From a virus: a stretch of 64,000 nucleotides of DNA. How positions within the stretch are numbered: position 1 is the stretch's first letter; every line of letters begins with the position of its first letter. Under the pieces are notes generated by a model that saw only the letters and a program-made list of their open reading frames with translations, was not told where the DNA came from and searched no databases. Positions 3,768 through 61,458 of the stretch are shown piece by piece. The stretch covers positions 1 through 64,000 of the IMG/VR virus record IMGVR_UViG_3300011115_000717; one strand, given 5' to 3'. Made by a program: the position numbers and the translations under genes.

Positions 3768-3796
3768 TTGATATTTTTTTTAAATTCTGGTATAAT
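3768..3796 (+). promoter_or_regulatory. sigma70-type promoter of gp33, leaderless
   Basis: TTGATA (3768-3773), 17 bases, TATAAT (3791-3796). Six bases separate the -10 from ATG 3803, so transcription should start on the A of the start codon. No ribosome-binding site is present. Confidence 0.75.
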
Positions 3797-3802
3797 ATCT
3801 AC

Positions 3803-4039
3803 ATGTATCTAGACGAAAATATAAAATTAACATTTTCAAGCAAAGTACTTGAAAGAGTACAAAAAACAAAATTATCATATATGGATTGTGTGTTGGAATT
3901 GGCAGAGGAAATGAATATTGAACCAGGTGCTGCTGGGAAACTTTTAACAAAACCTTTAATTGAAAAAATTCAAGAAGAAGCAAAAGAATTGCATCTTATG
4001 AAAGCAGTTAAAGGAAAAAAGTTACCGATTGATGGTTGA
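3803..4039 (+). CDS. gp33: late-transcription coactivator gp33
   Basis: A 78-residue protein. In T4, gp33 binds RNA polymerase and links it to the sliding clamp gp45 so that gp55-directed late promoters fire. The visible pattern is SYMDCVLELAEEMNIE at residues 25-40, then a helix with PLIEKIQEEAKELHL and a C-terminal LPI, which fits the small coactivator family of T4-like phages. It sits immediately upstream of gene 32 and has its own sigma70 promoter with no leader. The presence of gp55 and gp45 in the same window supports the call. It is too short for certainty. Confidence 0.62.
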   Translation: MYLDENIKLTFSSKVLERVQKTKLSYMDCVLELAEEMNIEPGAAGKLLTKPLIEKIQEEAKELHLMKAVKGKKLPIDG

Positions 4040-28693: not shown

Positions 28694-28726
28694 AAAAACC
28701 CTCGGGCTAAACACCCGAGGGTTTTT
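28694..28726. terminator. bidirectional terminator between gp23 and the minus-strand genes
   Basis: AAAAACCCTCGGG (28694-28706), loop CTAAACA, CCCGAGGGTTTTT (28714-28726). The arms are fully complementary and include the A and T tracts, so transcripts from both sides end here. Confidence 0.92.
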
Positions 28727-28751: not shown

Positions 28752-29231
28752 TTAATCAAAATCGTAATATGAATAGGTAAATGTAACTCTTGCTTTCATT
28801 GGTGTACTGTCACCAAGATCAGACCTAAAAGTAAGCGCACTTAAAGCAGTTGGAATTACATAATGAAACACTGCAGTTTTGTTGATTGGATAATAATTAG
28901 ATCCAAGAACTTGTAAATATGCAGTGGTTGCCCATGTTCTATACATTTCATTGTCTTTATCGTTAGAAATATTACCGATAGATGACATCCAATCATATAT
29001 GCTTTTCCAGTTTTCGATATTTTCATCTACAATAAATTCGAGAGCAAGTGCTTCAAATGTAAATGTATTTGTAGCAACCGGAATCTGTACACCAAGAGTA
29101 GTAGGCTGTGGGCTTACACTTAATTGAATACCAGGTAACGAAACTGTTTGACCAAACAATTCAAGTTTACTGTCTCCTCGGTCTATAATAAATTTATAAC
29201 AATTTGATAATAATGGATTGATGTTTGTCAT
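28752..29231 (-). CDS. tail-tube-fold protein (gp19 family, minor)
   Basis: A 159-residue minus-strand protein with gp19-family landmarks: NCYKFIIDRG near the start, LFGQTVSLPGIQL, and a final strand RVTFTYSYYDFD like the tube proteins. It overlaps the LSm-like gene upstream by four bases. Its distance from the main tube genes and its strand suggest a specialised ring, a tube terminator, or an independent structural role. It is the fourth tube-fold gene in the window (with 6564, 21516 and 22091). Confidence 0.6.
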   Translation of the reverse strand: MTNINPLLSNCYKFIIDRGDSKLELFGQTVSLPGIQLSVSPQPTTLGVQIPVATNTFTFEALALEFIVDENIENWKSIYDWMSSIGNISNDKDNEMYRTWATTAYLQVLGSNYYPINKTAVFHYVIPTALSALTFRSDLGDSTPMKARVTFTYSYYDFD

Positions 29232-29866
29232 AGTAAATAATCTTCTGGATTATCAGACCAACTCTGTGGATCTGATGCTTCGTTGTCGGGAATATAAGGT
29301 AGTTTTAACTCTTCCTTTTTGTATTTTCTTTTCTTTCTATTTTCATTAATTGCCTTTTCCCATTCAGCATTTAATGAGTCAAATAATTCTTCGGATGGTT
29401 CTTCTCTATCTTCTTCTTCATCAATTTCTGAATCCTGAAGATGTTCTTCATAAATTTCTTGTACAAAATCAATAAATTGTGGATCGGAGAACAATGCCCA
29501 TGCAACATCCATGTTATCGTGATCTGATTCTATTTCTGCTAATATAACATCATCCTTTAAACCATTCATGAATTCCAAATACGAATTGTACATATTGAGA
29601 ATATCATCAGATGGTTCTGCCAGATAGATAACATGTTTCATTAAAATAGTAATCGAAGTTTCTTTAATATTAGCCAAATAAGAAGTCACACGCAAACATT
29701 CAATTACCTCACCATCTGGAGTTGATGTTGTATAAAAGACAATCTTAGCCGGGTTTGAGAGAACGACTTCGTCTGGTGATTCATCCACCATTGATATTAA
29801 CTCTTCACCACTAGAGAGTTTAATAACTTTTATAGACGATGAAGCTTTGGGATCTGTTTCTACCAT
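29228..29866 (-). CDS. LSm-like protein with acidic C-terminal extension
   Basis: A 212-residue protein. Residues 10-100 carry the same small Sm-like pattern as the 888 gene: IKVIKLSSGEELIS, a Val-rich strand, SNPAKIVFY and a late helix with MYNSYLEFM. The C-terminal 90 residues are acidic then basic (SEIDEEEDREEPSEE, ENRKKRKYKKEELK), perhaps a protein-binding tail. It starts at ATG 29866 behind GGAGG, under a minus-strand GATAAATA box. Function unknown beyond the fold guess. Confidence 0.58.
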   Translation of the reverse strand: MVETDPKASSSIKVIKLSSGEELISMVDESPDEVVLSNPAKIVFYTTSTPDGEVIECLRVTSYLANIKETSITILMKHVIYLAEPSDDILNMYNSYLEFMNGLKDDVILAEIESDHDNMDVAWALFSDPQFIDFVQEIYEEHLQDSEIDEEEDREEPSEELFDSLNAEWEKAINENRKKRKYKKEELKLPYIPDNEASDPQSWSDNPEDYLL

Positions 29867-29882
29867 GCTTCCTCCTCAATAC

Positions 29883-29890
29883 TATTTATC
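29883..29890 (-). promoter_or_regulatory. late-promoter box GATAAATA (minus strand)
   Basis: Reads GATAAATA on the minus strand; predicted start about 29877, then a GAGGAGG ribosome-binding site before ATG 29866. Confidence 0.55.
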
Positions 29891-29901
29891 CAAAACAAGT
29901 T

Positions 29902-31398
29902 TTATATTTTGATCTTAAAAACTTTATGATCAAACTTTTCTTTTTTGTATATTTTAATACGTTGTTCAAAATGTTTCAGCACATGATTTTTATAACTTTT
30001 CCATGACATATCATCAACGATATCAAACACCTTTAGTGTTTGTTTAATTGCAGACGTTCTTAATCCACGCCCAATGCTCTGTAATAAGCGTATTACTGAT
30101 TTTGTCGGTGATGCAAAGATAATATTGTCGAGATGTACAATATTAATACCTGTGCTGGTAGTACCAAAAGAGGCAACAAGAATGGCATTTTTTTCTTTGT
30201 CGATTATCTTTCGAATAAATTCTCTATTTTCTGCATCAACTTTACCTGAAATGAAGTATACTTTCTTTTCTGGATATTGTTTTTGAATCAACTCATAAAG
30301 TGGTTTACCATGCTTTTCAACATAGTTAAAAAGAACCAATGTATTACCTTGGGTTTCACCACACAATTTTACAATAAAATCATTGCGTTTTGAATTTTCA
30401 ACCAAATAAGCCATTTCGTCTTGATATTTTAATTTTTTGACTCTATGCCTAGTTTGCTCATCATAATCCAAAACAATACAGTCTATCCCAAGCTTTGCCA
30501 GTACTCCTTTACTGATCAGCCCCCTTGTTGTTATAAACTGTACAGATGGCCCTAGCGTGCCCTCTATTGAGAGTTTATGCGCCAAGGTCTGATCCAGCGT
30601 ACCTGTAGTCCCGAGCCTAAACCAAGCCTTTGTCAGTTTTTTACCAATATTGACCAAAGAGTCTGCTTTTACAAGATGACACTCATCAAAAATTACAGCC
30701 TCGAACTGATCAAACCATTCTTTAGGAAGTTTGTACACAGACTGCCACGTAGATACGACAACTGGCTTATCTGTTAATTTTTCCTTGCCAGCACTGATTT
30801 TATGTACAAATTTTGTTACAGACCAAGATTTATCATTTTTTGAATAATCAAAGAAGTCTGCTTCCATCTGCTGAACTAACCCAACAGTGGGGACTAATAA
30901 TAGAATTTTCTTGGGAGCCTTTAGGCAGTACCGTAATAAGTATCGAATTATTAGATAAATTATAAGCGACTTACCACTACCCGTTGGTGATACTACAACA
31001 GATCGGGCATGTGTTAATGCGTGTAAGACAGCATTTTTTTGATGTGGATGTGGGATTACAGGTTCTTTTTTAACAGTGACATTTAAAGTTTTATAAAATT
31101 CATCAAATGATTCAGAATTTATGTCAATTGGATCTACAGTTTTATCATCAAAAATAACATTGTAATGTCGTTCATCACAGAATCGTTTAAGATATGACTT
31201 GAGTCCGCATGGAAGTGTAGAACTATTAATCTCATATAATTTAATTTTTCCATCCCATATACGAGATTTGTATAAGGGCATGTATTCTGCACCTGGAACC
31301 TTAAATGAAAAATAAGAACGAAGTTCTCTTTTTACAGAATCTTCGCAATCAATTTTATATTTTGTATGGTCTTCTGCTGATGCAATGATATTATACAC
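29902..31398 (-). CDS. uvsW: UvsW-type recombination helicase
   Basis: A 498-residue superfamily 2 helicase (T4 UvsW is about 503), which unwinds R-loops and branched DNA and moves replication to the recombination-dependent mode. Walker A is VSPTGSGKSLI near residue 137, the DEAH-type box is IFDECHLV near residue 235, and the helicase C-terminal motif VI is LLQSIGRGLR near residue 441. The minus-strand CATAAATA box just upstream predicts a start one base before ATG 31398. T4 uvsW is a late gene, which fits. Follows uvsY. Confidence 0.92.
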   Translation of the reverse strand: MYNIIASAEDHTKYKIDCEDSVKRELRSYFSFKVPGAEYMPLYKSRIWDGKIKLYEINSSTLPCGLKSYLKRFCDERHYNVIFDDKTVDPIDINSESFDEFYKTLNVTVKKEPVIPHPHQKNAVLHALTHARSVVVSPTGSGKSLIIYLIIRYLLRYCLKAPKKILLLVPTVGLVQQMEADFFDYSKNDKSWSVTKFVHKISAGKEKLTDKPVVVSTWQSVYKLPKEWFDQFEAVIFDECHLVKADSLVNIGKKLTKAWFRLGTTGTLDQTLAHKLSIEGTLGPSVQFITTRGLISKGVLAKLGIDCIVLDYDEQTRHRVKKLKYQDEMAYLVENSKRNDFIVKLCGETQGNTLVLFNYVEKHGKPLYELIQKQYPEKKVYFISGKVDAENREFIRKIIDKEKNAILVASFGTTSTGINIVHLDNIIFASPTKSVIRLLQSIGRGLRTSAIKQTLKVFDIVDDMSWKSYKNHVLKHFEQRIKIYKKEKFDHKVFKIKI

Positions 31399-31404
31399 TG
31401 CAAT

Positions 31405-31412
31405 TATTTATG
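31405..31412 (-). promoter_or_regulatory. late-promoter box CATAAATA for uvsW
   Basis: Minus-strand CATAAATA with predicted start 31399, one base before the uvsW ATG; no ribosome-binding site. Confidence 0.6.
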
Positions 31413-31415
31413 CCA

Positions 31416-31853
31416 TCATGAGATACCGTTAACAAGCTTATTCCAATCAATCGCAGACTTAATAGAGAAATTTCTATTAGTTAAAACCTTTAAAAAATCT
31501 TCTACCATTTTAACTTTAATTTCAAGAATATTTAAATCGGTTACAATTTTTAATAAGATAGGATCTGCTTCTAAAAATTTATCTAGATCAGTTTTTAATA
31601 ATTTCATTTGAAATGGATCTTCACCCCATTCTATCAACTCATCTTGAGTTGCGTGACCAGTGTAAATCTTCCATTTTCTCAATCGCATGATTAAAAATGC
31701 ATTATTTAATTTTTGTAATTCTATCTTAAGGTCTGCGTGTATATTTAAGTACTTACCATGTATAGCAGGAGTTCTTATAGCTTCTTTACCTAACTCTGTA
31801 GAGTCTATTAAAGAATCTTTTTTAATGTTATCTTTAAGGGTTTCTAAATTCAT
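31416..31853 (-). CDS. uvsY: recombination mediator UvsY
   Basis: A 145-residue protein (T4 UvsY is 137) that loads UvsX recombinase on gp32-covered single-stranded DNA. Matching pattern: SLIDSTELGKEAIRTPAIHGKYLNIH near residues 14-39, LRKWKIYTGHATQDE near residues 58-72, FQMKLLKTDLDKFLEADP, and a closing AIDWNKLVNGIS. It starts at ATG 31853, leaderless under a sigma70-like promoter, and runs into uvsW. UvsX is not in the window. Confidence 0.87.
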   Translation of the reverse strand: MNLETLKDNIKKDSLIDSTELGKEAIRTPAIHGKYLNIHADLKIELQKLNNAFLIMRLRKWKIYTGHATQDELIEWGEDPFQMKLLKTDLDKFLEADPILLKIVTDLNILEIKVKMVEDFLKVLTNRNFSIKSAIDWNKLVNGIS

Positions 31854-31862
31854 TATAAGTAT

Positions 31863-31891
31863 ACTATAGAGTATCCTTTAAGAAAAGTCAA
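31863..31891 (-). promoter_or_regulatory. sigma70-type promoter of uvsY (minus strand)
   Basis: Minus strand: TTGACT (31891-31886), 17 bases, TATAGT (31868-31863). The predicted start is two to three bases before ATG 31853. Confidence 0.7.
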
Positions 31892-31903
31892 GATATATCT
31901 TGA
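31888..31903. promoter_or_regulatory. 16-bp palindrome joining two divergent -35 elements
   Basis: TCAAGATATATCTTGA is a perfect inverted repeat. Its two ends form the TTGA part of the minus-strand and plus-strand -35 hexamers, so a bound dimer could control both promoters. It may also be chance in AT-rich DNA. Confidence 0.5.
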
Positions 31904-31928
31904 TTATTTATTAAAAATATGTTATAAT
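31900..31928 (+). promoter_or_regulatory. sigma70-type promoter of the sugar cluster
   Basis: TTGATT (31900-31905), 17 bases, TATAAT (31923-31928); predicted start near 31935. GTATCCTTTAA occurs at 31871-31881 and again at 31940-31950. Confidence 0.72.
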
Positions 31929-31962
31929 ATTGTTTATAAGTATCCTTTAAATTAAATTGAAT

Positions 31963-32640
31963 ATGATTATAGATCTAAGACAAATACCTACCGTATGGAT
32001 TAATCTTGATAGTGCTACTGGCAACGCATCAATCATGAACGAAAGATTTCGTGAGCACAGATTTTCCAACACCCATCGCAAATCAGCCTTACAAATAGCC
32101 CCACCACACGGGACACCAGATACAATCAAACATTATGTTGGTTGCGCTCAATCACATATTGATATTTTAGAGGATATGCGATATGATTGTCCTCTTCTAA
32201 TTTTAGAAGACGATGCTGAATTTACACCAGATTTTCATCCTCAAATCGAAGTAAAAGATGATACGGATGCTGTGTATCTTGGAGTTTCTTCTGGTAACCA
32301 ACATTATATTACTAAACGTATAGATAAACATTATATGCGTATTGGTAAAATTTTAGCAACACACGCAATTTTATATCTGAATAAAGATTATAGAAAAACT
32401 GTTGCTGACATAGCTAAAATTTTTGCTTATAGATTAAAGATTCCATTTGATAATGGATGTGCATTAGTACAAGAAAGATTTAATGTTATTACTCCAAATA
32501 AACCTTTTTTTGTTCAAGCTAATGCAAGACAAAGTGCTAATCAATGGGAAGTAGTAACCTCTAAACCATTGGTAGACAAGAATAGCGAGTTTCCTATTCG
32601 AGACCAAAATGTTAAATTAGAAATACAGGTGCCAGCATGA
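31963..32640 (+). CDS. glycosyltransferase family 25-like protein
   Basis: A 225-residue protein from ATG 31963 (a TTG six bases earlier is less likely). The central pattern VGCAQSHIDILEDM followed by LLILEDDAEF near residues 80-90 matches the GT25 (LPS galactosyltransferase type) signature, in which SH and an EDDA metal-binding motif are conserved. It transfers a sugar to a surface glycan in known family members. First gene of the sugar cluster; overlaps the next by four bases. No ribosome-binding site is evident in its short leader. Confidence 0.7.
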   Translation: MIIDLRQIPTVWINLDSATGNASIMNERFREHRFSNTHRKSALQIAPPHGTPDTIKHYVGCAQSHIDILEDMRYDCPLLILEDDAEFTPDFHPQIEVKDDTDAVYLGVSSGNQHYITKRIDKHYMRIGKILATHAILYLNKDYRKTVADIAKIFAYRLKIPFDNGCALVQERFNVITPNKPFFVQANARQSANQWEVVTSKPLVDKNSEFPIRDQNVKLEIQVPA

Positions 32641-33425
32641 TATCATGTCAAACTATAGGAACTAATGGTAGATTTGGTAACCAAATGTTTCAATATGCTA
32701 CTCTTTATGCTTTAGGTAAAGAATTAAATTATAAGATTGGTGTACCATATAAACAACGTAGTCCAAACGATAAATTAGATTTTTGTTTGTCAGATGCGTT
32801 TGACCTGTCGGCATCAGATTCATCTCAAAATTTTATGAGTTCTATGTATATAGAACCTCACTTTAATTATGATGCAAATATCCATAATATTCCAGACAAT
32901 TGTGATATTAGAGGCTATTTTCAAACAGAAAAATATTTTAAAAAGTATAAAAAAGATTTAATTAATAAAGAATTTAAATTTAAACAATCTATAGAAACTC
33001 AAGCAAATGAATTATTTGCAGGAAAAAATTCTGAATTAGTTTCTTTGCATATGCGATTAGGTGATTATTTAAATGTACCAGAATGTCACCCCGTATGTTC
33101 TATTGAATATTACAAAGAATCTCTTAAATTAATACCTGCTGATGTACAAATAATATTGTTCAGTGATGATTACGGTGTTGCAAATAATATTATTAAACAT
33201 TTAGGTAGACATGTAATGATGTATGGCAGCAATGATAAATTTTTAGATATGTGTTTAATGACAAAATGTGAATATCATATTATTGCAAACAGTTCATTTA
33301 GTTGGTGGGGATCTTGGTTATCGAATAGTAAAAAAACCATTGCACCAAAACAATGGTTTGGCTCTTCACCAAATATGCCAAAAAATTGGGATAGTATTTA
33401 TTCTGACGGCTGGGATATTGTATGA
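32637..33425 (+). CDS. alpha-1,2-fucosyltransferase-like (GT11)
   Basis: A 262-residue protein with the GT11 pattern: GRFGNQMFQYATLYALGKEL at residues 10-29, HMRLGDYL (the HxRxGDY nucleotide-sugar site) near residue 138, and ANSSFSWWGSWL near residue 218. The family transfers fucose or a related 6-deoxyhexose from a GDP-sugar. It overlaps both neighbours by four bases. With the GDP-mannose dehydratase at the end of this cluster it fits a GDP-deoxyhexose pathway. Complete, AT-rich coding. Confidence 0.82.
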   Translation: MISCQTIGTNGRFGNQMFQYATLYALGKELNYKIGVPYKQRSPNDKLDFCLSDAFDLSASDSSQNFMSSMYIEPHFNYDANIHNIPDNCDIRGYFQTEKYFKKYKKDLINKEFKFKQSIETQANELFAGKNSELVSLHMRLGDYLNVPECHPVCSIEYYKESLKLIPADVQIILFSDDYGVANNIIKHLGRHVMMYGSNDKFLDMCLMTKCEYHIIANSSFSWWGSWLSNSKKTIAPKQWFGSSPNMPKNWDSIYSDGWDIV

Positions 33426-34219
33426 AAAATTATTCAGATATTACTTTTATAATACCATTGCGATGTGAATCTAAGTCTCGTTTATTAAATTTAGATATTA
33501 TACTTCATTGGATTAAATCTAAATTTAATTCTCCTGTTATTGTAAAAGAAAATAATACTGACCCTATTGGTCAAAATATTTGTTCTAAGTATGATAATGT
33601 ACAATATATATTTGAAAAATCTGACAATACTATTTTTCATCGTACTAAATTATTAAATGATATGATCCTAGAATGTAAAACAAAATATATTTCTAATTTT
33701 GATTGTGATGTAATATTACCAGTAGAAAATTTAAATTTGGCTTTACAGTTATTAAAACACAAATACGATTTTGTATACCCATATACTTATGGTCATGGAT
33801 TTCAAAAAAGAATACATCATTCAAATTGGGAAAAATTTAAAAAATCTTTAAATTTAGATGATTTAAATACAGATTTATGGATAGCTGGGGTCGGACATTG
33901 TTTTATTGCAAAAACTGATAGTTACATTAAAGCATATGGAGAAAATGAAAATTTTATAGGATGGGGACCAGAAGATTTGGAACGATTTAAAAGATTTAAA
34001 AAATTAAATTTTAATACAACACATCTTCCTAATAGTTATTTTATATATCATATTGAACATCTAAGAACACAAAATTCTTGTAATTTGCATTCTGATTTTG
34101 ACAATAATAATAAATTAGAAAAAAAATTAAATTTAATGGATAAAGAAAATATAATTAACTATTATAAAAATTTAGATTATGTTAAAAATCGAAAATTTAA
34201 TAGTGAAATTTCTGTGTAA
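33422..34219 (+). CDS. GT-A fold glycosyltransferase
   Basis: A 265-residue protein. ITFIIPLRCESKSRLLNLDI at residues 7-26 starts a Rossmann-like domain, NFDCDVILP near residues 93-101 holds the DxD metal motif, and GWGPEDLERFKRFKKL near residues 180-195 resembles the C-terminal family 7 motif (GWGxEDxD). Transferred sugar and acceptor unknown. Start at ATG 33422 overlaps the previous stop by four bases; 21 bases separate it from the next gene. Confidence 0.68.
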   Translation: MKNYSDITFIIPLRCESKSRLLNLDIILHWIKSKFNSPVIVKENNTDPIGQNICSKYDNVQYIFEKSDNTIFHRTKLLNDMILECKTKYISNFDCDVILPVENLNLALQLLKHKYDFVYPYTYGHGFQKRIHHSNWEKFKKSLNLDDLNTDLWIAGVGHCFIAKTDSYIKAYGENENFIGWGPEDLERFKRFKKLNFNTTHLPNSYFIYHIEHLRTQNSCNLHSDFDNNNKLEKKLNLMDKENIINYYKNLDYVKNRKFNSEISV

Positions 34220-34240
34220 TATTTATTATATTATATAAAA

Positions 34241-35233
34241 ATGAACAGAAAAAAAATTAAATATAAAAAAATAATAATTTGGGGTCACCCATTATATTCT
34301 CATACACATTCTTATATTCATGAAGCATATTATAAAGCTTTTAAATATTTGGGATATGATGTTTACTGGTTTGATGATAAAAATTACCCTATTGATTTTG
34401 ATTACAATAATTGTTTATTTATTGGAGAAGGCTTTGCTGCTGATAATTTACCTTTAAATAATACAAGTTGTTATATGATAATGTATTGTCCATCACCGGC
34501 AAAATATATTGAAGCTGGAGTTGGTCGGTATATTGATATAAGAATGGCTGCAACAGATTTTAAAGATCATATACAAGAATATTCTTTAGATAAATCTTTG
34601 GTAACAAATATAGGTCCCTCGTGTTATTATGAGCCAAAGACAAATAACAATATAATAATTAAAAATAATTATGTAAATTATTCAATTAAAGATTTTGATA
34701 AAATTTATATATCTTGGGCTACAAATTTATTACCTTGTGAAATAAATTTTGATGATATGCATCTACCACGAGAAAATAATATATATTATTGTGGAACTAT
34801 ATCATATTCCGGTGAATGTGAAACTGTCTCAAATTTAAATCCATTTATAGAATCATGTAAAGAATATAAAATAAATTTTATACACAATGATTGTTGGCAT
34901 AACCCATTAACAAGTGCACAAGTTATTGAATTATCAAAAAAATCTATTTTGGGTATTGATATTCGTGGGAAAAAACACATAAAAGAAAATTTAGTAACAT
35001 GTAGAGTATTTAAAAATATAAGTTACGGTCATCTGGGGTTAACAAATTCACTTGCAATATACGAATCAATGGATGGTAATTGTATTTACAATATAGATAC
35101 CAAACAACTCTTTCATGATGGTATAAATAATAAAAACAATTATAAATTAATAAAAAAAGGTATGAATTATGTTAAAAATAATCATACGTACCTTAATAGA
35201 ATAAATTCTTTGTTAGAAGTAGTCAATATATGA
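34241..35233 (+). CDS. putative GT-B fold glycosyltransferase
   Basis: A 330-residue protein beginning KIIIWGHPLYSHTHSYIHEAYYKAF, a GT-B style N-terminal Rossmann start, and ending with a C-terminal donor-site-like segment (TCRVFKNISYGHLGLTNS near residues 260-277, then YESMDG). The CgeB-like families show a similar VFE..GCG-type region. Very high Asn, Lys, Ile and Tyr content. It overlaps the following gene by four bases. Family membership is tentative, but its place among glycosyltransferases supports it. Confidence 0.5.
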   Translation: MNRKKIKYKKIIIWGHPLYSHTHSYIHEAYYKAFKYLGYDVYWFDDKNYPIDFDYNNCLFIGEGFAADNLPLNNTSCYMIMYCPSPAKYIEAGVGRYIDIRMAATDFKDHIQEYSLDKSLVTNIGPSCYYEPKTNNNIIIKNNYVNYSIKDFDKIYISWATNLLPCEINFDDMHLPRENNIYYCGTISYSGECETVSNLNPFIESCKEYKINFIHNDCWHNPLTSAQVIELSKKSILGIDIRGKKHIKENLVTCRVFKNISYGHLGLTNSLAIYESMDGNCIYNIDTKQLFHDGINNKNNYKLIKKGMNYVKNNHTYLNRINSLLEVVNI

Positions 35234-36168
35234 ATATATTAGTTATAAATCATTCTGTAGAAAATTGTGGCGTATATCAATACGGTAAACGTGTTGGTCA
35301 CATTCTAAAGAAATCAAAAAAATATAAATTTATTTATTTAGAACAAAATTCTCAAGAAGAACTAGATCAAAATATTGAAATATATAAACCAAAAATTATA
35401 ATATATAATTATTTAGGTGGAACAATGCCTTGGGTAAATCCATATACCGTGGCTAACATAAGATCTAAAAATATTAAACAATTTTTAATTGTACATAATG
35501 GTGGATATGCGCAGTTTTTTGATTATTATTTACACCAAGACCCTTATTACAACTCGTCTGATAATATAAATTTTGCTTTAATGCGGCCTTTATTTGATTA
35601 TAAGCCCAAAACAGCAAAACATAATACCAATATTATTAAAATAGGGTCTTTTGGGTTTGGGTTGAGGTGTAAATATATACATGATATATGTAATATAGTA
35701 AAACAACAAATGTCCAATAAAAATGTTGAAATTAATTTACATTTAACAAATGCTCATTTTTCAAATGGAAATGATATAGATGGTATTAAAACAGATTGTT
35801 TAAATATTTTATCTGGTACTAATATAAAATTAAATGTCACAACTGATTTTCTATCCGATAAACAAATTTTAGATTTTTTATATAATAATAATTTAAATAT
35901 ATTTTTCTATGAAAAGTATAATTTTTATAATGGGATATCATCCACTATTGATTATGCTCTTTCGGTAAAAAAACCACTTGCCATATGTCAAAGTAATATG
36001 TTTAGTCATATATGGGATGTTACCCCATCAATTTGTGTAGAAAATAATTCTCTAGAAAATATTATTAATAATAAATTTACTCCGTTATTAGAAAAAGCTA
36101 CTAGTTGGAACAATAAAAATTTTATTACTCATATGGAATCAATTATAGAAAAAGTTTTAAATGTTTAA
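35230..36168 (+). CDS. putative glycosyltransferase (GT-B like)
   Basis: A 312-residue protein starting MNILVINHSVENCGVYQYGK, typical of GT-B enzymes (Rossmann strand followed by a Gly-rich turn). The second half, with KIGSFGFGLRCKYIHDICN and ISSTIDYALSVKKPLAIC near residues 235-252, resembles the nucleotide-sugar half of GT4 enzymes, where a late ExxAxG(K/L)P-type loop binds the donor. It overlaps the next gene by eight bases. No confirmed catalytic residue. Confidence 0.52.
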   Translation: MNILVINHSVENCGVYQYGKRVGHILKKSKKYKFIYLEQNSQEELDQNIEIYKPKIIIYNYLGGTMPWVNPYTVANIRSKNIKQFLIVHNGGYAQFFDYYLHQDPYYNSSDNINFALMRPLFDYKPKTAKHNTNIIKIGSFGFGLRCKYIHDICNIVKQQMSNKNVEINLHLTNAHFSNGNDIDGIKTDCLNILSGTNIKLNVTTDFLSDKQILDFLYNNNLNIFFYEKYNFYNGISSTIDYALSVKKPLAICQSNMFSHIWDVTPSICVENNSLENIINNKFTPLLEKATSWNNKNFITHMESIIEKVLNV

Positions 36169-36775
36169 TTCATTAGCTAAACAAGATCAATTTGTAGTAA
36201 ATTTTTTAAATTTTAAAGAATACGGATTTTATGTTGATATAGGTAGTCATTTTTCACAAAAAAATAATAATAGTTATTTTTTTCAAACTTTAAATTGGAA
36301 AGGTTTGACCGTTGAAATAGATAGTATCTATAACGAAAGTTATCTTACACGTAAAGATAATACACATATAAACCAAGATGCATGTCTAATTAACTATAAG
36401 TTACTTTTTAAACAATGTAATTTTCCAAAAACTATTGATTATCTTTCATTAGATGTAGATGAATTGAGTTTGTCTGTTTTACAAATATTACCTTTTGATG
36501 AATATAGTTTTTCTATTATTACTATAGAACATGATGCTTATTTACATGGTGATACGTATAGATTACCACAACGAAATTTGTTAAAAGACCATGGATATGA
36601 TTTAATTTGCTCAAATGTTTTTGTCGAACAAACTGGTTATAATATTAAAAATTCTCCTTTTGAAGATTGGTATATTAAACCAGAATATTTTGATAAAACT
36701 TTGATAGAAACAATTCGTAGTGAATCAGAGTACCCGTCCCAAATATTAAACAAATTTAAAAATATTAAAAGATAA
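36161..36775 (+). CDS. FkbM-type methyltransferase-like protein
   Basis: A 204-residue protein. FYVDIGSHFSQKNNNSYFF at residues 23-41 is a SAM-binding motif I, GLTVEIDS follows, and IDYLSLDVDELSLSVLQ near residues 93-109 matches the FkbM motif I-D-x-L-S-x-D-V-(E/D). These enzymes methylate hydroxyls of sugars or related compounds. It lacks part of the usual C-terminal region. It overlaps the previous gene by eight bases. A second member lies at 37551. Confidence 0.65.
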   Translation: MFNSLAKQDQFVVNFLNFKEYGFYVDIGSHFSQKNNNSYFFQTLNWKGLTVEIDSIYNESYLTRKDNTHINQDACLINYKLLFKQCNFPKTIDYLSLDVDELSLSVLQILPFDEYSFSIITIEHDAYLHGDTYRLPQRNLLKDHGYDLICSNVFVEQTGYNIKNSPFEDWYIKPEYFDKTLIETIRSESEYPSQILNKFKNIKR

Positions 36776-36781
36776 ATTTTT

Positions 36782-37549
36782 ATGAAACCACAATTGGGTG
36801 TCATGTTAACATGTTATGACGAAATTGAAGCTGTAAAATATGCTGTTGAACAATTTAGAATATATTATCCAGATACAAAAATTTATTTAGTTACTGAAAG
36901 TAAAGAACAACAATATATTAAAATTTTTAAAAATGATAAAAATATTAAAGTTAATTATGTAGAAGATAGTATGAGTTTTTATTATAATACTCCAAATTTA
37001 CCTATAATATACCAAACAGCTGATATCCAACTTAAAATTAAAAAAGCAGTTTTATGTTTTTTAACACGATTAAATGATGCAATAAAATATTGTGATTCTG
37101 ATTATATGCTTTTAATGGACCCAGATGTATTAATACGAGGTCAGCTTACTATTTCCAATGAAAAAAAATTATTAGGATCTCTTGCTAATTCTGGTGTCCC
37201 TAATAATATTAAAAATATTCTATCTAACATAGAAGGTGCTATACCTATAGATCGATGGGGAGCCACTCCAGGTATATTTCATACAGAAACATTCAAAAAA
37301 GCTTATTTAAAATTTTTAAGTATAGAAAATTTATTAACTCAATTAACAATGAATTGGTATGCTATGTATGCTCATGATATTATTATACCAATAATGTTTT
37401 CTTTAATTGGAGAAAGAGAATATTACAATAATGATTTTATTGAATGTAATACTGACCCAAATTGGAAAAATACAGATAAAAAATTAGTGCATCATTTTAA
37501 AAAATATTATAAAAACGCAACATATAAATTTCCTTGGTGGAGAGATTAA
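36782..37549 (+). CDS. GT-A type glycosyltransferase
   Basis: A 255-residue protein starting MKPQLGVMLTCYDEIEAVKYAVEQFR, a GT2-like opening. SDYMLLMDPDVLIRG near residues 104-118 contains a D-x-D (DPD) metal motif, and WGATPGIFHTETF near residues 160-172 is a likely acceptor loop. The closing helix contains HHFKKYYK. Donor and acceptor unknown. Spaced by six bases from the methyltransferase gene before it and by one base from the one after. Confidence 0.6.
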   Translation: MKPQLGVMLTCYDEIEAVKYAVEQFRIYYPDTKIYLVTESKEQQYIKIFKNDKNIKVNYVEDSMSFYYNTPNLPIIYQTADIQLKIKKAVLCFLTRLNDAIKYCDSDYMLLMDPDVLIRGQLTISNEKKLLGSLANSGVPNNIKNILSNIEGAIPIDRWGATPGIFHTETFKKAYLKFLSIENLLTQLTMNWYAMYAHDIIIPIMFSLIGEREYYNNDFIECNTDPNWKNTDKKLVHHFKKYYKNATYKFPWWRD

Positions 37550-37550
37550 T

Positions 37551-38177
37551 ATGAATATACATGAATTTTTTGCAGAAAACAATTTAGATGAAAGAATAAG
37601 AAATACATATTTTCCAGATTATACCTATAAAGGAACTGTCATAGAAGTTGGTGCTGCAACGCCTTCATTTCTTTCATTTTCAAAACATTTTGCCTTAAAT
37701 GGTTGGAGGGCTATTTTAATTGAACCCAATCCATATTTTGTTGAACAACATAAAAAATTATCAAATGAAATTTATGAATATGCTTGTTCTTATGAAGATG
37801 CAGATAATGTAGATTTTACTATCTACCATCAAAATATCGGTGATATAACAGACCATTCGTTTTCTTCTTTTTATTTAAAAGAAGAATATCAACTAATGTC
37901 TAATAATATTGCTCAAACTTTAAACACTACTTCTATAAAAGTAAAAACTAGAACTTTAGATACTATTATAAAAGAAACAAATATAACTAATATTGATATT
38001 TTATCTATTGATGTTGAAGGTTGGGAATTAGAGGTACTACGGGGTTTAACCATTATGAAACCTAAAATTATAATTTTAGAAAATTTATTTAATTGGCCAA
38101 GCTACAGAGAATATGTATGTAGTTTAGGTTATACCTTTGTAAAACATGATACCTTTGATGATATCTATAGTTTATGA
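37551..38177 (+). CDS. FkbM-family methyltransferase
   Basis: A 208-residue SAM-dependent methyltransferase. GTVIEVGAATPSFLSFSKHFALNG at residues 24-46 region contains motif I, RAILIEPNPYFVEQ follows with the acidic end of strand 2, and NIDILSIDVEGWELEVLRGL near residues 145-164 is the characteristic FkbM core. Likely O-methylates a sugar made or transferred by its neighbours. It overlaps the next gene by four bases. Clear family match. Confidence 0.82.
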   Translation: MNIHEFFAENNLDERIRNTYFPDYTYKGTVIEVGAATPSFLSFSKHFALNGWRAILIEPNPYFVEQHKKLSNEIYEYACSYEDADNVDFTIYHQNIGDITDHSFSSFYLKEEYQLMSNNIAQTLNTTSIKVKTRTLDTIIKETNITNIDILSIDVEGWELEVLRGLTIMKPKIIILENLFNWPSYREYVCSLGYTFVKHDTFDDIYSL

Positions 38178-39100
38178 ATAACATAGCATTTATTACAGGA
38201 ATTTTAGGACAAGATGGAACCTATTTACGTAAGATTCTTTTACAAAAAGGATTTACTGTTATTGGGTTTGACAGAAATATAACAGCCAAAAATAATATTG
38301 ATGATGGTGCAATAATTTTAGAAATAAATTTAACAGACCGAACAAATGTTTTAAATTTATTTAAAAAATATTATCCCTCACATGTTTACAATTTAGCAGG
38401 TGTTTCTAATGTATTTGACCCTTGGAAAAATACAAATGAAATGATTCAACATACAATACAAATACCTCAAAATTTTATGGATTGTATAATGACGGTTTCA
38501 CCTAATACAGTATTTTGTCAAGCTTCTTCGTGTTTAGTTTTTGGTAATACAGATACAAAACGACAAAATGAAAAAACTTCTCGTTCTCCTTTATATCCTT
38601 ATGGATTATGCAAAAATTTTATTGATGAATTAATAAAAAGTTATAGAGAAGAAAAGGGAATGCATTTTTGTTCTGCTATTTTATATAATCATGACTCACC
38701 ATATAGAGGAAATAAGTTTTTTATAAAAAAACTAATAAATTTTGCAAAATCATTAAAAAACAATAGAAATCAAAAAATAGATTTTTTTAGTTTAAATGTT
38801 TTAAAAGATTTAGGTTTTGCTGGAGATTATATGGAAGCGTTTTATTTAATGTCTCAAGCAAAGATTAAAGATGATTATATTATTTCGAGTGGAAAACTTA
38901 CAAATTTATTAACTGTAGTTGAACAAGTTTCCCAGTTAGCTGAATTAAATATACTTGATTATATCAATATAAATAATAATGTAAAACACAGTGAAGCATT
39001 ATTATTTGGCGATAATTCTAAAATTACAAATGAATTAAATTGGCAACCCTTGGTACAATATAATGAAATTGTTGATTTGATTTGGAATACTAATCTTTGA
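38174..39100 (+). CDS. SDR nucleotide-sugar enzyme related to GDP-mannose dehydratase
   Basis: A 308-residue short-chain dehydrogenase. The NAD(P) motif is GILGQDGTYLRK at residues 9-20. The active-site region reads ASSCLVFG near residue 116 where GDP-mannose 4,6-dehydratase has a Ser/Thr-x-Glu (SSSEMFG), so the catalytic Glu is replaced by Leu. YPYGLCK retains the Tyr-x-x-x-Lys pair. It resembles the 43780 gene in length, order of motifs and FAGDY segment. It could be a reductase or epimerase in a GDP-deoxyhexose pathway, or a degenerate copy. Overlaps the methyltransferase by four bases. Confidence 0.68.
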   Translation: MNNIAFITGILGQDGTYLRKILLQKGFTVIGFDRNITAKNNIDDGAIILEINLTDRTNVLNLFKKYYPSHVYNLAGVSNVFDPWKNTNEMIQHTIQIPQNFMDCIMTVSPNTVFCQASSCLVFGNTDTKRQNEKTSRSPLYPYGLCKNFIDELIKSYREEKGMHFCSAILYNHDSPYRGNKFFIKKLINFAKSLKNNRNQKIDFFSLNVLKDLGFAGDYMEAFYLMSQAKIKDDYIISSGKLTNLLTVVEQVSQLAELNILDYININNNVKHSEALLFGDNSKITNELNWQPLVQYNEIVDLIWNTNL

Positions 39101-39147
39101 GTGTTTATTGTATATTACTATGTATTTTTTTATAAAAAAGGATCGAT

Positions 39148-40374
39148 ATGAATAAAATGTCTTTATTGTCAATGGGAAATTTATATGTTTCAGATTTTTT
39201 AGCAGAAGGTGAAAAACCGCGTGGTGGAAAATATCCGTTAGAAATGGTTTTAGACCCACAACTTAATGCCCCAAGATTATCTACAGTTGCCCCCAGTGGA
39301 GTAATGTATGGTAAATATTGGTATAGATCGGGTATTAATCTATCTATGAAACACGAATTAAAAAATATTGTAGATACAGTTATATCACGATATGATCTTG
39401 TAGAAAATGATATTTGGTTGGATATTGCTTGTAATGATGGTACTTTATTATCATATGTCCCTAAAACTTGTATTAGAGTTGGAATTGATCCAGCTGATGA
39501 TACTTATGTTGCTGAATCAAAACAACATGCAAATGTAATTATTCAAGATTATTTTTCAGTTAATTCATGGAAAAAAACAGTTTTTGGTGATAAAAAAGCA
39601 AAAATTATTACTTCTATTGCAGTATTTTATGATTTGGATGATCCTACATCTTTTGTTAAAGATATTAAAAATGTACTTGATATAAATGGTATGTGGGTAT
39701 TACAATTAAGTTATACTCCCCTCATGATTAAACAAAAGGCATTTGATAATATATGTCATGAACATGTTTACTATTATTCTCTTGAAAATTTAAAAATCTT
39801 ATTTGATTCGTGTGGTATGAAAATTGTTGATGTAGAATTAAATGATGTTAATGGCGGATCATTTAGAGTTTTTGTTATGAACAAAGATGCAAATCAAACT
39901 TCTTATGGAACTGCACCATTACGGGATGTAGCAGATTATCGTGTTGAATCTATGTTGGCTTATGAAAAATCTTTAAATCTATCCAGTAAAAAAACCTGGG
40001 ATGATTTTATGGTAGAAATTTCTAATTTAAAAACACAAGTTGTTGAATTTATTAAACAAGCTAAAAAAGATGGTAAGCGAGTATGGGGATATGGAGCATC
40101 TACCAAAGGAAATACTTTACTTCAGTATTTTGGTTTAGATCATACTATGATTGATGCAATAGCAGAACGAAGTTCCTATAAATGGGGTCTAAAAACTGTT
40201 GGAACTAATATTCCTATTAAATCTGAAGCAGAAATGCGAGAAGAACAACCAGATTATTTACTTGTACTTCCTTGGCATTTTATTTCTGAATTTATTGAGC
40301 GTGAAAAAAATTATTTGGGTAAAGGTGGTAAATTTATTGTTCCGTGCCCAAATTTTCAAATTATTGGTATATAA
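39148..40374 (+). CDS. sugar C-methyltransferase-like protein
   Basis: A 408-residue protein with the three-part architecture of TylCIII/NovU-type sugar C-methyltransferases: a short N-terminal region, a SAM-binding domain (DIACNDGTLLSYVPK near residues 92-106, IGIDPADD-like segment), a CHEHVYYYSLENLK motif (the HEH of the active site) near residues 208-221, and a C-terminal domain with RVWGYGASTKGNTLLQYF. The usual Cys-rich zinc motif at the N terminus is absent. It starts at ATG 39148 behind AAAAAAGGA. Substrate unknown; family members act on nucleotide-4-keto sugars. Confidence 0.72.
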   Translation: MNKMSLLSMGNLYVSDFLAEGEKPRGGKYPLEMVLDPQLNAPRLSTVAPSGVMYGKYWYRSGINLSMKHELKNIVDTVISRYDLVENDIWLDIACNDGTLLSYVPKTCIRVGIDPADDTYVAESKQHANVIIQDYFSVNSWKKTVFGDKKAKIITSIAVFYDLDDPTSFVKDIKNVLDINGMWVLQLSYTPLMIKQKAFDNICHEHVYYYSLENLKILFDSCGMKIVDVELNDVNGGSFRVFVMNKDANQTSYGTAPLRDVADYRVESMLAYEKSLNLSSKKTWDDFMVEISNLKTQVVEFIKQAKKDGKRVWGYGASTKGNTLLQYFGLDHTMIDAIAERSSYKWGLKTVGTNIPIKSEAEMREEQPDYLLVLPWHFISEFIEREKNYLGKGGKFIVPCPNFQIIGI

Positions 40375-41331
40375 ATGAAAATTGCTTTAGTTGGTCCGGG
40401 TATTATGGAAATCCCCCCTCCCCGTTGGGGGGCAGTAGAAATGGTTATATGGGACTGTGCAACCATTTTACGTAATGCTGGGCATTCGGTTTCCATTATT
40501 AATACACCAAATACACAAAATATTATTGATGAAATAAATAATGATACTTTTGATATTGTACATCTTCATTATGATGTATTTGCTTATATTATGCCTTTTT
40601 TAAAAGCAAAAGTTAAAATTATATCAAGTCATTATCCCTTTATAAATAATATTGCTCAATATAAATCTGATGGATATGATAAAGTTATAGGTCATATTAT
40701 TAATAATAAAGATTTTTATATTTTTGCTTCATCGCAAAAAGATATTAATACATTTATAAGTTATGGTGCTGATATAAATAAAACATTTTTGTGTAAATTG
40801 GGAGTAGAAAGCAATTCATATAATTTTGAAACCACACCAACATATAATAAAACTTTATGTTTTTCTCAGATTGTAGATAGGAAAAGACAACACCTAATTC
40901 AAAGTATTGATTCTATAGATTTTATTGGAAGATATGATAATTCAAACTTTACTAATATGAAAGCATATAAAGGTGAATTTGAAAGAAAAACCTTAAACAA
41001 TGAAATAACAAAATATTCTAATTTTATTTTACTAAGTAAAGAAGAAAATACTACACCATTGGTAGTTAAAGAAGCTCTTATATGTGGACTAGGGGTTGTT
41101 GTAAGTGAAGCTGTTGCTTATGAATTAGATACCAGTTTAGATTTTATTTCAGTTATAGAAGAAAATAAAATACATGACTTGGATTATATTCAATTAGTTC
41201 TAGAACAAAATAAAAAAATATCAATTTTATCCAGAGACAGAATTCGATCTTATGGTATAAATAACTTTGATATATCAAATATTATATTAAATGAATATCT
41301 TGTTAAATTAGAAAGTTTATTCAATGTGTGA
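40375..41331 (+). CDS. GT4-like glycosyltransferase
   Basis: A 318-residue GT-B enzyme starting MKIALVGPGIMEIPPPRWG, an N-terminal motif repeated almost exactly in the 42124 gene. The C-terminal half has KEENTTPLVVKEALICGLGVVVSE near residues 222-245, the donor-binding E-x7-E-like region of GT4. It starts directly at the stop of the methyltransferase gene and overlaps the next gene by eight bases. The two GT4 genes flank a GT-A gene and may act in sequence on one glycan. Confidence 0.75.
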   Translation: MKIALVGPGIMEIPPPRWGAVEMVIWDCATILRNAGHSVSIINTPNTQNIIDEINNDTFDIVHLHYDVFAYIMPFLKAKVKIISSHYPFINNIAQYKSDGYDKVIGHIINNKDFYIFASSQKDINTFISYGADINKTFLCKLGVESNSYNFETTPTYNKTLCFSQIVDRKRQHLIQSIDSIDFIGRYDNSNFTNMKAYKGEFERKTLNNEITKYSNFILLSKEENTTPLVVKEALICGLGVVVSEAVAYELDTSLDFISVIEENKIHDLDYIQLVLEQNKKISILSRDRIRSYGINNFDISNIILNEYLVKLESLFNV

Positions 41332-43771: not shown

Positions 43772-43779
43772 TAAATTAT

Positions 43780-44760
43780 ATGAAACAAAAAATTGCAATT
43801 ATAAGTGGTGTCAACGGTCAAGATGGTTCTTATTTATCAGAACATCTTTTAAGTTTGGATTATCTAGTTATAGGACTCAAACGAAGAACAAGTACTATTA
43901 CCACTGAAAGAATTGATAATATCTATAATAATCCAAACTTTAAATTGGAATATTATGATTTAAACGATGCATCTGCTTGTTACAAATATATAAATCAATA
44001 CCAACCCAACGAAATTTATAACCTTGCAGCTCAGTCTCATGTAAAGGTTTCTTTTGATATCCCAACTAACACAGTAGATGGAATTGTTCATGGTACATTA
44101 AATTGGCTTGAAGCAATAAGAAATACCAATACTTCTATTAAATTTTATCAAGCATCTTCTTCTGAAATGTTTGGTGATAGTCCAATTACAGAAGATACAG
44201 GATATAATGAAGATTCACCTTTAGTCCCTGTCTCTCCATATGCGGCTGCAAAAGTATGTGCACATAACTTGGTGAATATTTACAGAAGATCATACGGATT
44301 ACACGCCTGTTCGGGTATTTTGTTTAACCATGAATCCCCAAGGCGTGGTGAGACATTTGTTACCAGAAAGATTACTCTTGCTGCAGCCAAGATAAAACTT
44401 GGTTTACAAAACAAACTATATTTGGGTAATCTAACAGCAAAAAGAGATTGGGGATTTGCTGGTGATTATGTAAAAGCCATGCATCTTATGTTACAACATC
44501 ATATTCCAGCTGATTATATAATTGCAACGGGAAAAACACATTCTATTCAAGAATTTGTAAAAGAAGTATTTGATTATGCTTCGTTAGACTATAATGAATA
44601 TGTTGTGGTTGATTCAAAACTTTTTAGACCAATTGAAGTCCCTTATTTGCTTGGAAATTCAAGTAAAGCTCAAACCGATTTAGGGTGGAAACCTGTGATT
44701 GATATGAAACAATTAGCGCACATGATGTATGATGCAGATTTAAAATTATTACAGACTTGA
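43780..44760 (+). CDS. gmd: GDP-mannose 4,6-dehydratase
   Basis: A 326-residue short-chain dehydrogenase that converts GDP-mannose to GDP-4-keto-6-deoxymannose. Motifs: SGVNGQDGSYLSEHLLSLDY (NADP-binding) at residues 9-28, LAAQSHVKVSF near residue 86, ASSSEMFGD with the catalytic Ser/Glu near residue 128, SPYAAAKV with Tyr-x-x-x-Lys near residue 152, and NHESPRRGETFVTRKI near residues 184-199. All key residues are present, unlike in the 38174 gene. Its product can feed GDP-fucose or GDP-rhamnose routes. It closes the sugar cluster; its stop lies in the gp55 promoter. Confidence 0.93.
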   Translation: MKQKIAIISGVNGQDGSYLSEHLLSLDYLVIGLKRRTSTITTERIDNIYNNPNFKLEYYDLNDASACYKYINQYQPNEIYNLAAQSHVKVSFDIPTNTVDGIVHGTLNWLEAIRNTNTSIKFYQASSSEMFGDSPITEDTGYNEDSPLVPVSPYAAAKVCAHNLVNIYRRSYGLHACSGILFNHESPRRGETFVTRKITLAAAKIKLGLQNKLYLGNLTAKRDWGFAGDYVKAMHLMLQHHIPADYIIATGKTHSIQEFVKEVFDYASLDYNEYVVVDSKLFRPIEVPYLLGNSSKAQTDLGWKPVIDMKQLAHMMYDADLKLLQT

Positions 44761-44784
44761 CATTTACACCATTTGTGGTATAAT
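44757..44784 (+). promoter_or_regulatory. sigma70-type promoter of gp55, leaderless
   Basis: TTGACA (44757-44762, overlapping the gmd stop), 16 bases, TATAAT (44779-44784), then six bases to ATG 44791. The start should fall on the initiation codon. Confidence 0.8.
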
Positions 44785-44790
44785 TGACTA

Positions 44791-45369
44791 ATGGCAAAGG
44801 ACAAAATAAAAAAATCAAAGAAACCAAAAAGCAAAGATGGAGATTACGTTGATAACTCTGTCTTGTATCAAGAGTTAGTTGAATATAAAAAGAAAAAGAA
44901 TGATGCAGAAAACTCTGGTAAAAAGAAACCAAAGTTACCTGATTATGTTGGTGACGCAATTTTAAAAATTGCAAACCGATTATCTTTTCGCCCAAACTTT
45001 GCCAATTATACCTACCGGGAAGAAATGGTATCGGATGCAGTTTTAAACTGTGTTACCTATATTGATAATTTTGATCCAGATATTTCTAAATCCCCATTCG
45101 GATATTTGACCCAGATATGCTGGTTCTCGTTTGTTCGTATAATCAACAAAGAGAAAAAAGAAAAGTATATTCAATTTAAAGTTGCTCAAAACCAAAATAA
45201 CCCAGAGTTTCATAGATGGTTTAATGAAACTTTTTCTGGAGTCGAAAATGGGTTTAAGGATGCATTTGGTATTGGTGAACCAGAAGTAGAAAAAATGGAT
45301 AAACTGCTTGAAGGTAAAAGAAAAGGTCGAAAGAAGAAGACCCAAGATGGAGGTTCCTTGAATGTGTAA
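44791..45369 (+). CDS. gp55: late sigma factor gp55
   Basis: A 192-residue protein (T4 gp55 is 185). It recognises the late box with host core RNA polymerase. The central helices YREEMVSDAVLNCVTYIDNFDP near residues 73-94 and SPFGYLTQICWFSFVRIINKEKKE are sigma region-2-like. A Lys-rich N terminus and basic C terminus flank them. It has a consensus sigma70 promoter with no leader and overlaps the gp47 gene by eight bases. The late boxes across the window are its expected targets. Confidence 0.92.
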   Translation: MAKDKIKKSKKPKSKDGDYVDNSVLYQELVEYKKKKNDAENSGKKKPKLPDYVGDAILKIANRLSFRPNFANYTYREEMVSDAVLNCVTYIDNFDPDISKSPFGYLTQICWFSFVRIINKEKKEKYIQFKVAQNQNNPEFHRWFNETFSGVENGFKDAFGIGEPEVEKMDKLLEGKRKGRKKKTQDGGSLNV

Positions 45370-59244: not shown

Positions 59245-59272
59245 TTGACTTTAATTTTCTTTATGCTATAAT
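59245..59272 (+). promoter_or_regulatory. sigma70-type promoter of the dUTPase gene, leaderless
   Basis: TTGACT (59245-59250), 16 bases, TATAAT (59267-59272) with an extended TG two bases before, then six bases to ATG 59279. Confidence 0.78.
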
Positions 59273-59278
59273 AGTCAC

Positions 59279-59797
59279 ATGTTCTTAGACTACTTTAAAG
59301 TTTCTCCAAATATTCCAGATCCAAACTTTCAGACCAAAATGTCTGCCTGCTTTGATCTAGCCGCATATATTCCATCTACTGAAAAAGTAAAAATTTATGA
59401 TGGAAAAAAGGAAAATTCCTTTCTTCCAGATCATGATGGAGAAAAAGGTCAAGATTACATCACCCTAATGCCTTCTGAAAGGGCTCTAATTCGCACAGGC
59501 TTGACTTTTAACGTGCCCCAAGGATATTCTGTCCGAATACACCCTAGATCAGGAATGGCTCTTAAATACGGTCTTACGCTTGCAAATTGCGAAGGCGTAG
59601 TCGATGAAGATTACACCTATGAGACCAAAATTATCATGATCAATACTAGCACAGATCCTGTCAGAATCTATAATAGAGATAGAATTGCACAGGCTGAACT
59701 CGTAAAGTATGAACAGCCAACGCTAATGGAAATTTATACAGAACCGAGTCTCAAGTCAGACCGTATCGGTGGGTTCGGTAGTACTGGAATCAGTTGA
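59279..59797 (+). CDS. dut: trimeric dUTPase
   Basis: A 172-residue dUTP diphosphatase that removes dUTP and supplies dUMP for dTTP synthesis. Family motifs in order: motif 1 ACFDLAA near residues 23-29; motif 2 PRSGMALKYGL near residues 90-100; motif 3 LANCEGVVDEDY near residues 102-113 (catalytic Asp and Tyr); motif 4 RDRIAQAEL near residues 136-144; motif 5 RIGGFGSTG near residues 162-170. An insert of about 25 residues sits between motifs 1 and 2. Its last 42 bases overlap the convergent lipoprotein gene. Confidence 0.9.
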   Translation: MFLDYFKVSPNIPDPNFQTKMSACFDLAAYIPSTEKVKIYDGKKENSFLPDHDGEKGQDYITLMPSERALIRTGLTFNVPQGYSVRIHPRSGMALKYGLTLANCEGVVDEDYTYETKIIMINTSTDPVRIYNRDRIAQAELVKYEQPTLMEIYTEPSLKSDRIGGFGSTGIS

Positions 59798-61102: not shown

Positions 61103-61130
61103 TTGACTATGGGGTGTAATGTGGTATAAT
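61103..61130 (+). promoter_or_regulatory. sigma70-type promoter before the small gene and gp43
   Basis: TTGACT (61103-61108), 16 bases, TATAAT (61125-61130), then seven bases to ATG 61138. Confidence 0.78.
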
Positions 61131-61137
61131 ATACACC

Positions 61138-61458
61138 ATGAATAAAGATGAATTGTTCCACCTACACGAAGACATTTGCCGTCGTGCCTTAGTTATAATG
61201 CGGGCAAAATCCGCCGATTACTCCTCTGGATCAGACCCTTTTGCTAACTTTAAGCGAGGAGAGATACTGGGGTTTGCGAGTGCCGAAGAGGGGTTAATGT
61301 TGCGAGTAGTCGATAAAATCTCACGTATTTCCACTTTTCTTAAGAAGGGTGAACTAAAAGTGGGAAATGAGAGTGTTCAAGACAGTATTCTTGATGTTAT
61401 TAATTATATGATTTTACTTCAGGGGTTGTTGACAGATAAAGAAACCAAATCATTATGA
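61138..61458 (+). CDS. small all-alpha NTP-pyrophosphatase-like protein (DUF1599 type)
   Basis: A 106-residue helical protein. AKSADYSSGSDPFANFKRG near residues 23-41, VVDKISRISTFLKKGE near residues 57-72 and QDSILDVINYMILLQGL near residues 81-97 match the small MazG-like/DUF1599 proteins that hydrolyse nucleoside triphosphates. It likely acts in nucleotide metabolism together with the nearby dUTPase. It starts leaderless under a sigma70 promoter and overlaps the polymerase gene by four bases. Confidence 0.72.
   Translation: MNKDELFHLHEDICRRALVIMRAKSADYSSGSDPFANFKRGEILGFASAEEGLMLRVVDKISRISTFLKKGELKVGNESVQDSILDVINYMILLQGLLTDKETKSL

Follow-up and report, generated by a model that had tools for sequence, protein, structure and literature searches.

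T4-like cyanophages are believed to rely on the unmodified host RNA polymerase for transcription of their early genes; in S-PM2 and Syn9 these genes have promoters of the TTGACA/TATAAT type, and the structural genes have late promoters that resemble NATAAATA (excerpts of PMC2984593). S-PM2 carries gp23, gp3, uvsY, uvsW, a 'methylamine utilization' gene, gp55 and gp47 in this order, all on one strand, with uvsY overlapping gp3. In T4 itself uvsY is a middle gene, and an origin is marked there in the T4 record, in the region of oriF. Two promoter designs described outside this group also bear on the locus. Bidirectional promoters in E. coli use a single near-symmetric -10 for both strands, with room for one polymerase at a time, and the two starts lie mostly 10-23 bp apart (excerpts of PMC12825309). 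Leaderless genes are recognised by a TANNNT signal ~12 bp upstream of the start codon (excerpts of PMC3160421). Phage transcripts are called often leaderless in the excerpted text of PMC5312081, which means that leaderless genes in phages are not in themselves new.

How does the present locus compare? The window, which is the whole stretch of DNA analysed, comprises 64,000 bases (G+C 36%) of a 107,928-base record that is possibly a fragment. Protein searches identify an uncultured T4-like phage: among the best matches listed, its gp23 is 52-54% identical to cyanophage gp23 and its UvsW 44-46% identical to those of Methylophilales phage Melnitz and cyanophages. Pfam searches of ten other genes returned gp32, a baseplate protein and a phosphoesterase, with no clue to the host.

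Gene content and layout

The first-pass annotation had named the genes on either side of a 109-base gap (31854-31962) as uvsY and a sugar cluster, and profile matches for UvsY, UvsW and glycosyltransferase-like genes bear these names out. On the minus strand, uvsY (31416..31853; PF11056, E 1e-23; phrog_231, E 5.6e-36) encodes a recombination mediator of 145 aa, and the next gene is that of the DNA helicase UvsW (29902..31398; phrog_16, E 3e-90; PF21241). On the plus strand, the sugar cluster runs from 31963 and shows glycosyltransferase-like matches to phrog_24091, GT11 and GT7C/GT2. Its first gene (31963..32640; phrog_24091, E 4.4e-36; PF01755 below the cut-off) starts at the ATG at 31963, where the ORF list places the start at a TTG at 31957, and this start region is kept in relatives. 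All 15 contigs that carry the first sugar gene were also recovered by the UvsY search. Since the sugar gene is found only beside uvsY, the pair is a fixed arrangement in the group.

Compared with S-PM2, the uvsY-uvsW block (28752-31853) is inverted, and a gene matching the 'methylamine utilization' family (29228-29866) has been inverted together with uvsW and uvsY. The sugar cluster (31963-44760) lies between this block and gp55 (44791). Because the gene order differs from that of S-PM2 in these respects, we infer that the divergent gap probably marks a border where an inversion and an insertion meet the older gene order. A likely bidirectional terminator, with a 13-bp stem followed by a T run (28694..28726), separates gp23 from the point where the uvsY-side genes end.

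Divergent promoters and the palindrome at their -35 boxes

On both strands of the gap, a scan combined with conservation in relatives identifies a sigma70-type -35 hexamer and its -10, with a spacing inside the 16-18 range of such promoters. The uvsY promoter (minus strand) consists of a -35 TTGACT (31886..31891; TTGACA in other lineages) and, at spacing 17, a -10 TATAGT (31863..31868) that lies 9 nt before the ATG. The sugar-cluster promoter (plus strand) consists of a -35 TTGATT (31900..31905; again TTGACA in other lineages) and a -10 TATAAT (31923..31928) at spacing 17 (16 in other lineages), 34 nt before the ATG. The loose promoter scan, with 73 sites against 72 expected, is no evidence by itself; conservation is.

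Homologs for this comparison came from a UvsY protein search that yielded 34 loci; upstream sequence was taken for 33, the exception being L035, which has a partial gene. The 16 close loci (L002-L017), with UvsY 71-100% identical, form with the window five lineages: the window with L002-L009 and L017; L010-L013; L014; L015; and L016, the last two being close to each other. A scan with the 23-base uvsY start returned 18 stretches, 16 on known contigs and two new ones, L100 and L101, which make up a sixth lineage and, having been found by DNA pattern, are biased toward the uvsY-start block. All six lineages keep the uvsY promoter as TTGAC[AT]-N17-TATAGT and the sugar-side promoter as TTGA..-N16/17-TA[TC]AAT, with TACAAT as the -10 of L014. 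The divergent promoters that the first-pass annotation had proposed for uvsY and the sugar cluster are thus supported, both being conserved in every close lineage examined, and direct reading and the scan agree with it that in the window the -35 hexamers are 8 bases apart (31892-31899).

Could one polymerase at a time serve both directions, as in the E. coli class? Here too, two divergent starts come from one short intergenic region. However, each promoter has its own -10 and -35 boxes, the -10s are 54 bp apart (52 in relatives), and the predicted starts, at ~31856 on the minus strand and ~31935 on the plus strand, are ~79 bp apart rather than 10-23 bp. A shared bidirectional promoter of this kind is therefore extremely improbable.

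Spanning the two TTGA tetramers is a perfect 16-bp palindrome, TCAAGATATATCTTGA (31888..31903), seen by direct reading and by scan. It does lie at the -35 boxes, as first described, but what had been called the inner half of both hexamers is in fact four of the six bases (TTGA) of each. The window contains three perfect palindromes of at least 16 bp, where first-order Markov copies predict 2.7 +- 1.7; by our own arithmetic, the chance of one falling within the given 109-base gap is about 0.005. Most of the palindrome is fixed by the -35 boxes themselves. With the TTGA tetramers of both in place at an even spacing, the four inner pairs would arise by chance at 0.005; once the TC that usually precedes TTGA is also taken as present, the two pairs left at the centre would do so at 0.07. 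A C precedes TTGA at several other promoters of the record as well, so the TCTTGA arms need no repressor to account for them.

The palindrome had been read as the operator of a dimeric repressor that switches off the recombination genes and the sugar cluster together. A more tolerant version of this proposal has the dimer bind the inverted repeat and shut off both sides in spite of a changed centre and spacing. The perfect 16-bp symmetry over both -35s fits such a binder, the 8-base arms persist in L010-L016 and L101, and an operator that controls one locus could well be present in a single copy. Two outward positions, moreover, look alike on the two sides within a lineage (the sixth base is T/T in the window; the base after the hexamer is T/T in L101 and A/A in L010-L016), as a dimeric binder predicts, although only two such events are seen. 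Against this, perfect symmetry is found only in the window's own lineage, where UvsY is 99-100% identical, and is gone in all others: L010-L013, L014, L015, L016 and L100/L101 keep the promoters without it, including the relatives in which UvsY is 71-78% identical. This is the outcome that the first-pass annotation had named as refuting its proposal. In these five other lineages the hexamers are 7 apart, as TGTCAA-N7-TTGACA, a pattern that occurs once each in G003, G006, G007, G008 and L101 and is expected 0.07 times per 108 kb. The six bases of the hexamers are conserved while the N7 centre varies (GTATCTC, GTAATTC, GTATTTC, GTACTTC, GTATCTA). What the relatives retain is an imperfect inverted repeat with 8-base arms and a 5- or 7-base centre, which reads TTGTCAAG-N5-CTTGACAA or AATGTCAA-N7-TTGACATT.

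For a dimer, the change in half-site spacing from 8 to 7 means that a fixed symmetric spacing is not conserved, and a shift of one base would turn the half-sites by ~34 degrees relative to each other. The inner base of one arm is lost in L101, and the arm bases that are conserved are those of the -35 region. The 107,928-base record holds a single site even with two mismatches allowed, by which we also reject a repeated operator; with up to three mismatches, the 64,000-base window has 3 sites against 0.99 expected. Given the shifted spacing, the varying centre and the lack of a second copy, the operator as first proposed is not supported, and the tolerant version is unlikely.

We consider it probable that uvsY-uvsW and the sugar cluster each have a sigma70-type early promoter of their own in the gap, the two standing back to back, and that the palindrome is no conserved operator. 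The palindrome would then be two inverted -35 regions (consensus tcTTGACa) set 8 bases apart around a centre that is self-complementary by chance in the window's lineage. Host RNA polymerase most likely reads both promoters early, before the gp55/gp33/gp45 late system acts; their consensus character fits the early reading by unmodified host polymerase described for T4-like cyanophages in the excerpts of PMC2984593, and, as in S-PM2 and Syn9, promoters of TTGACA/TATAAT type would here stand beside a separate late class. Any coupling of the two sides might come from competition between two polymerases, which is possible because upstream polymerase contacts reaching to ~-55 would overlap by ~30 bp (our own arithmetic from the predicted starts 31856 and 31935). 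The proposed shared operator thus gives way to a simple layout of two early promoters back to back.

This layout differs from that of the T4 middle gene: uvsY has a consensus -35 here, and neither TGCTT nor AAGCA, the MotA-type core, occurs in 31854-31962 by direct reading. Searches for MotA and AsiA gave no match, and their controls were silent too. The late promoter motif of the phage is likely CTAAATA-like, [CT]TAAATA, which is frequent ahead of late genes. It stands upstream of several structural genes, such as gp23 (27225) and the gene at 22716, and also at 26204, 52091 and other places, and does not form part of the conserved promoter elements of the gap. The window does contain a late-promoter-like AATAAATA pointing toward uvsY (31912-31905, minus) and a TATAAGTA pointing toward the sugar gene (31936-31943, plus). 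Both are absent from the other lineages, and a late promoter for either gene was rejected.

An 11-base repeat, GTATCCTTTAA, had been put forward as a second candidate element. Both exact copies are where they had been placed, one in the uvsY -35/-10 spacer (31871..31881, plus) and one in the sugar-gene leader (31940..31950, plus), but the pair is not conserved. The first copy is altered in other lineages. The second is exact only in the window and the near-identical L002, which are also the only sequences with the exact pair; it reads TTAAAGGAGAC (minus sense) in the rest of the window's lineage and is unrecognisable elsewhere. With at most one mismatch, the 11-mer occurs 7 times against 2.5 expected.

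The invariant block upstream of uvsY

Where, then, is the gap most constrained? The strongest constraint is at the uvsY start region. The 20 nt directly upstream of the uvsY ATG, TACTCTATAGTATACTTATA (31854..31873, minus), show no difference in any of the 16 close loci. Mean pairwise identity is 1.00 in this block, 0.94 in the -35, 0.54 in the intervening spacer and 0.76 at third codon positions, averaged over six representatives that leave out L003, a near-copy of the window, and include L101 in spite of its bias. Were the transcript to start 7 nt beyond TATAGT, the uvsY mRNA would begin 5'-AUAAUG, with a leader of ~3 nt, and would be almost leaderless.

The block is more conserved than a -10 needs, and a further factor may act there. 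An unnamed regulator could bind it, or it could mark a replication origin at the start of uvsY like T4 oriF. Invariance at 20 of 20 positions in all 16 loci, far above the spacer and the third codon positions, speaks for an added function, as does the origin annotated at uvsY in T4 for that part of the proposal. On the other hand, the -10, the discriminator, the start site and a near-leaderless 5' end may between them need most of these bases; the record holds no other copy of the 12-base core within one mismatch, and the 8-bp palindrome inside the block, AGTATACT, is weak when taken alone. We regard a regulator site or an origin here as improbable.

The more distant uvsY loci differ among themselves. 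In L021, L022, L025, L026, L031-L033 and L018, the ATG follows the end of a TANNNT box by 6-7 nt; L024, L030, L027-L029 and L034 are leadered, with a Shine-Dalgarno-like sequence; a promoter is not clearly recognisable in L019 and L020, and the L023 sequence breaks off where the gene begins.

Promoters with leaderless spacing

In our view, the leaderless spacing is a more interesting feature of this sequence than the palindrome. Defining a promoter-like site as TTGA.., a spacer of 15-19 and TATA[AGC]T, and counting an ATG for ORFs of at least 40 aa, we detected 29 sites in the 107,928 bases, 8 of which have an ATG 6-7 nt after the -10. In the window, on the plus strand, the ATG follows TATAAT by 6 nt for a gp33-like late-promoter regulator (3768..3805; phrog_254), a gp55-like late sigma factor (44757..44793; phrog_234) and a dUTPase (59245..59281; phrog_135), and by 7 nt for a phrog_1485-like protein (61103..61140). 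Outside the window, on the minus strand, it follows TATAAT by 6-7 nt at 98584-98547, 87715-87678, 86120-86083 and 85288-85251; the promoter at 86120 serves an ORF of only 59 aa, and that at 85288 overlaps the end of a predicted tmRNA. The remaining 21 of the 29 sites lack an ATG at this distance, and some are inside genes. Leadered promoters are found at 838 (21 nt, with GAAAGG before the ATG) and 48272 (13 nt), in addition to the sugar promoter with its 34 nt. Of 111 called genes, each assigned its first ATG as the start by rule, 31 have a Shine-Dalgarno-like tetramer ahead of it; random 13-mers contain one in 7.6% of cases.

Searched for as an exact pattern, TTGA-N18-20-TATAAT-N6-7-ATG has 8 matches in the record and is present in 13 of 15 records (the source record and 14 chosen from the UvsY-search loci); the reversed control gave 0. 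Five records (G000, G003, G006, G007 and G008) hold 46 promoter-like sites, 16 of them with an ORF ATG at 6 or 7 nt, although these 16 are not all independent, as some of the five records have near-identical stretches in common. Markov copies of the same five records average 12.2 sites, 0.2 with such an ATG. At gp55, assigned in relatives by its shared protein start only, the distance of 6 is constant while the six bases change (TGACTA, TAACAC, CATCAC, TAGCAC), which points to selection on distance. For the gp45 clamp (phrog_223), the distance to the ATG is 13 nt in the source record, and distances of 7 and 10 nt are seen in G006, G007 and G008. Eight named phages (1.39 Mb) have the pattern at six places in three of them (Melnitz-2 1, S-PM2 3, S-SSM7 2) and not in Mosig, P-SSM4, pf16, T4 or syn9; per base, it is ~17 times rarer in the eight than in the source record.

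The spacing is the same as in the leaderless genes described in the excerpts of PMC3160421, the first T of TATAAT being 12-13 bp before the ATG at the eight record promoters. Those genes are bacterial and archaeal, whereas the present ones belong to a T4-like phage and have a -35 box as well. At uvsY, the first T is at 15 bp, against the ~12 bp of the leaderless mark, which would make this gene near-leaderless. Many early messages of the phage seem to begin at the start codon. It is possible, though we would not presume it, that this group of T4-like phages uses leaderless mRNAs as a class, made from host-read early promoters, for dUTPase and for the genes that set up late transcription (gp33-like and gp55, with gp45 in relatives), that uvsY is almost leaderless, and that the structural genes combine late promoters with leadered mRNAs. 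Among the titles and abstract openings of the literature searched, none describes leaderless promoters as a class in T4-like phages. If transcripts confirm the pattern, a whole class of phage promoters would make leaderless messages, including those for the factors of the late-gene switch. Translation of leaderless mRNA would then be a testable control step in T4-like infection, and a change in how ribosomes behave during infection could time early versus late proteins.

The predicted tmRNA is permuted, has the tag ANKQLQTMIANQLAMAA and adjoins a tRNA-Tyr (L045:5263-5643 and L045:5614-5696); tRNAs for Asn, Glu, Ile, Arg, Leu and Lys lie elsewhere in the record, outside the window. Also outside the window, two strong promoters (104570-104597 and 107855-107882), with no ORF start nearby, are each followed by a similar CCTATCGGCGTTGCT and possibly produce small RNAs.
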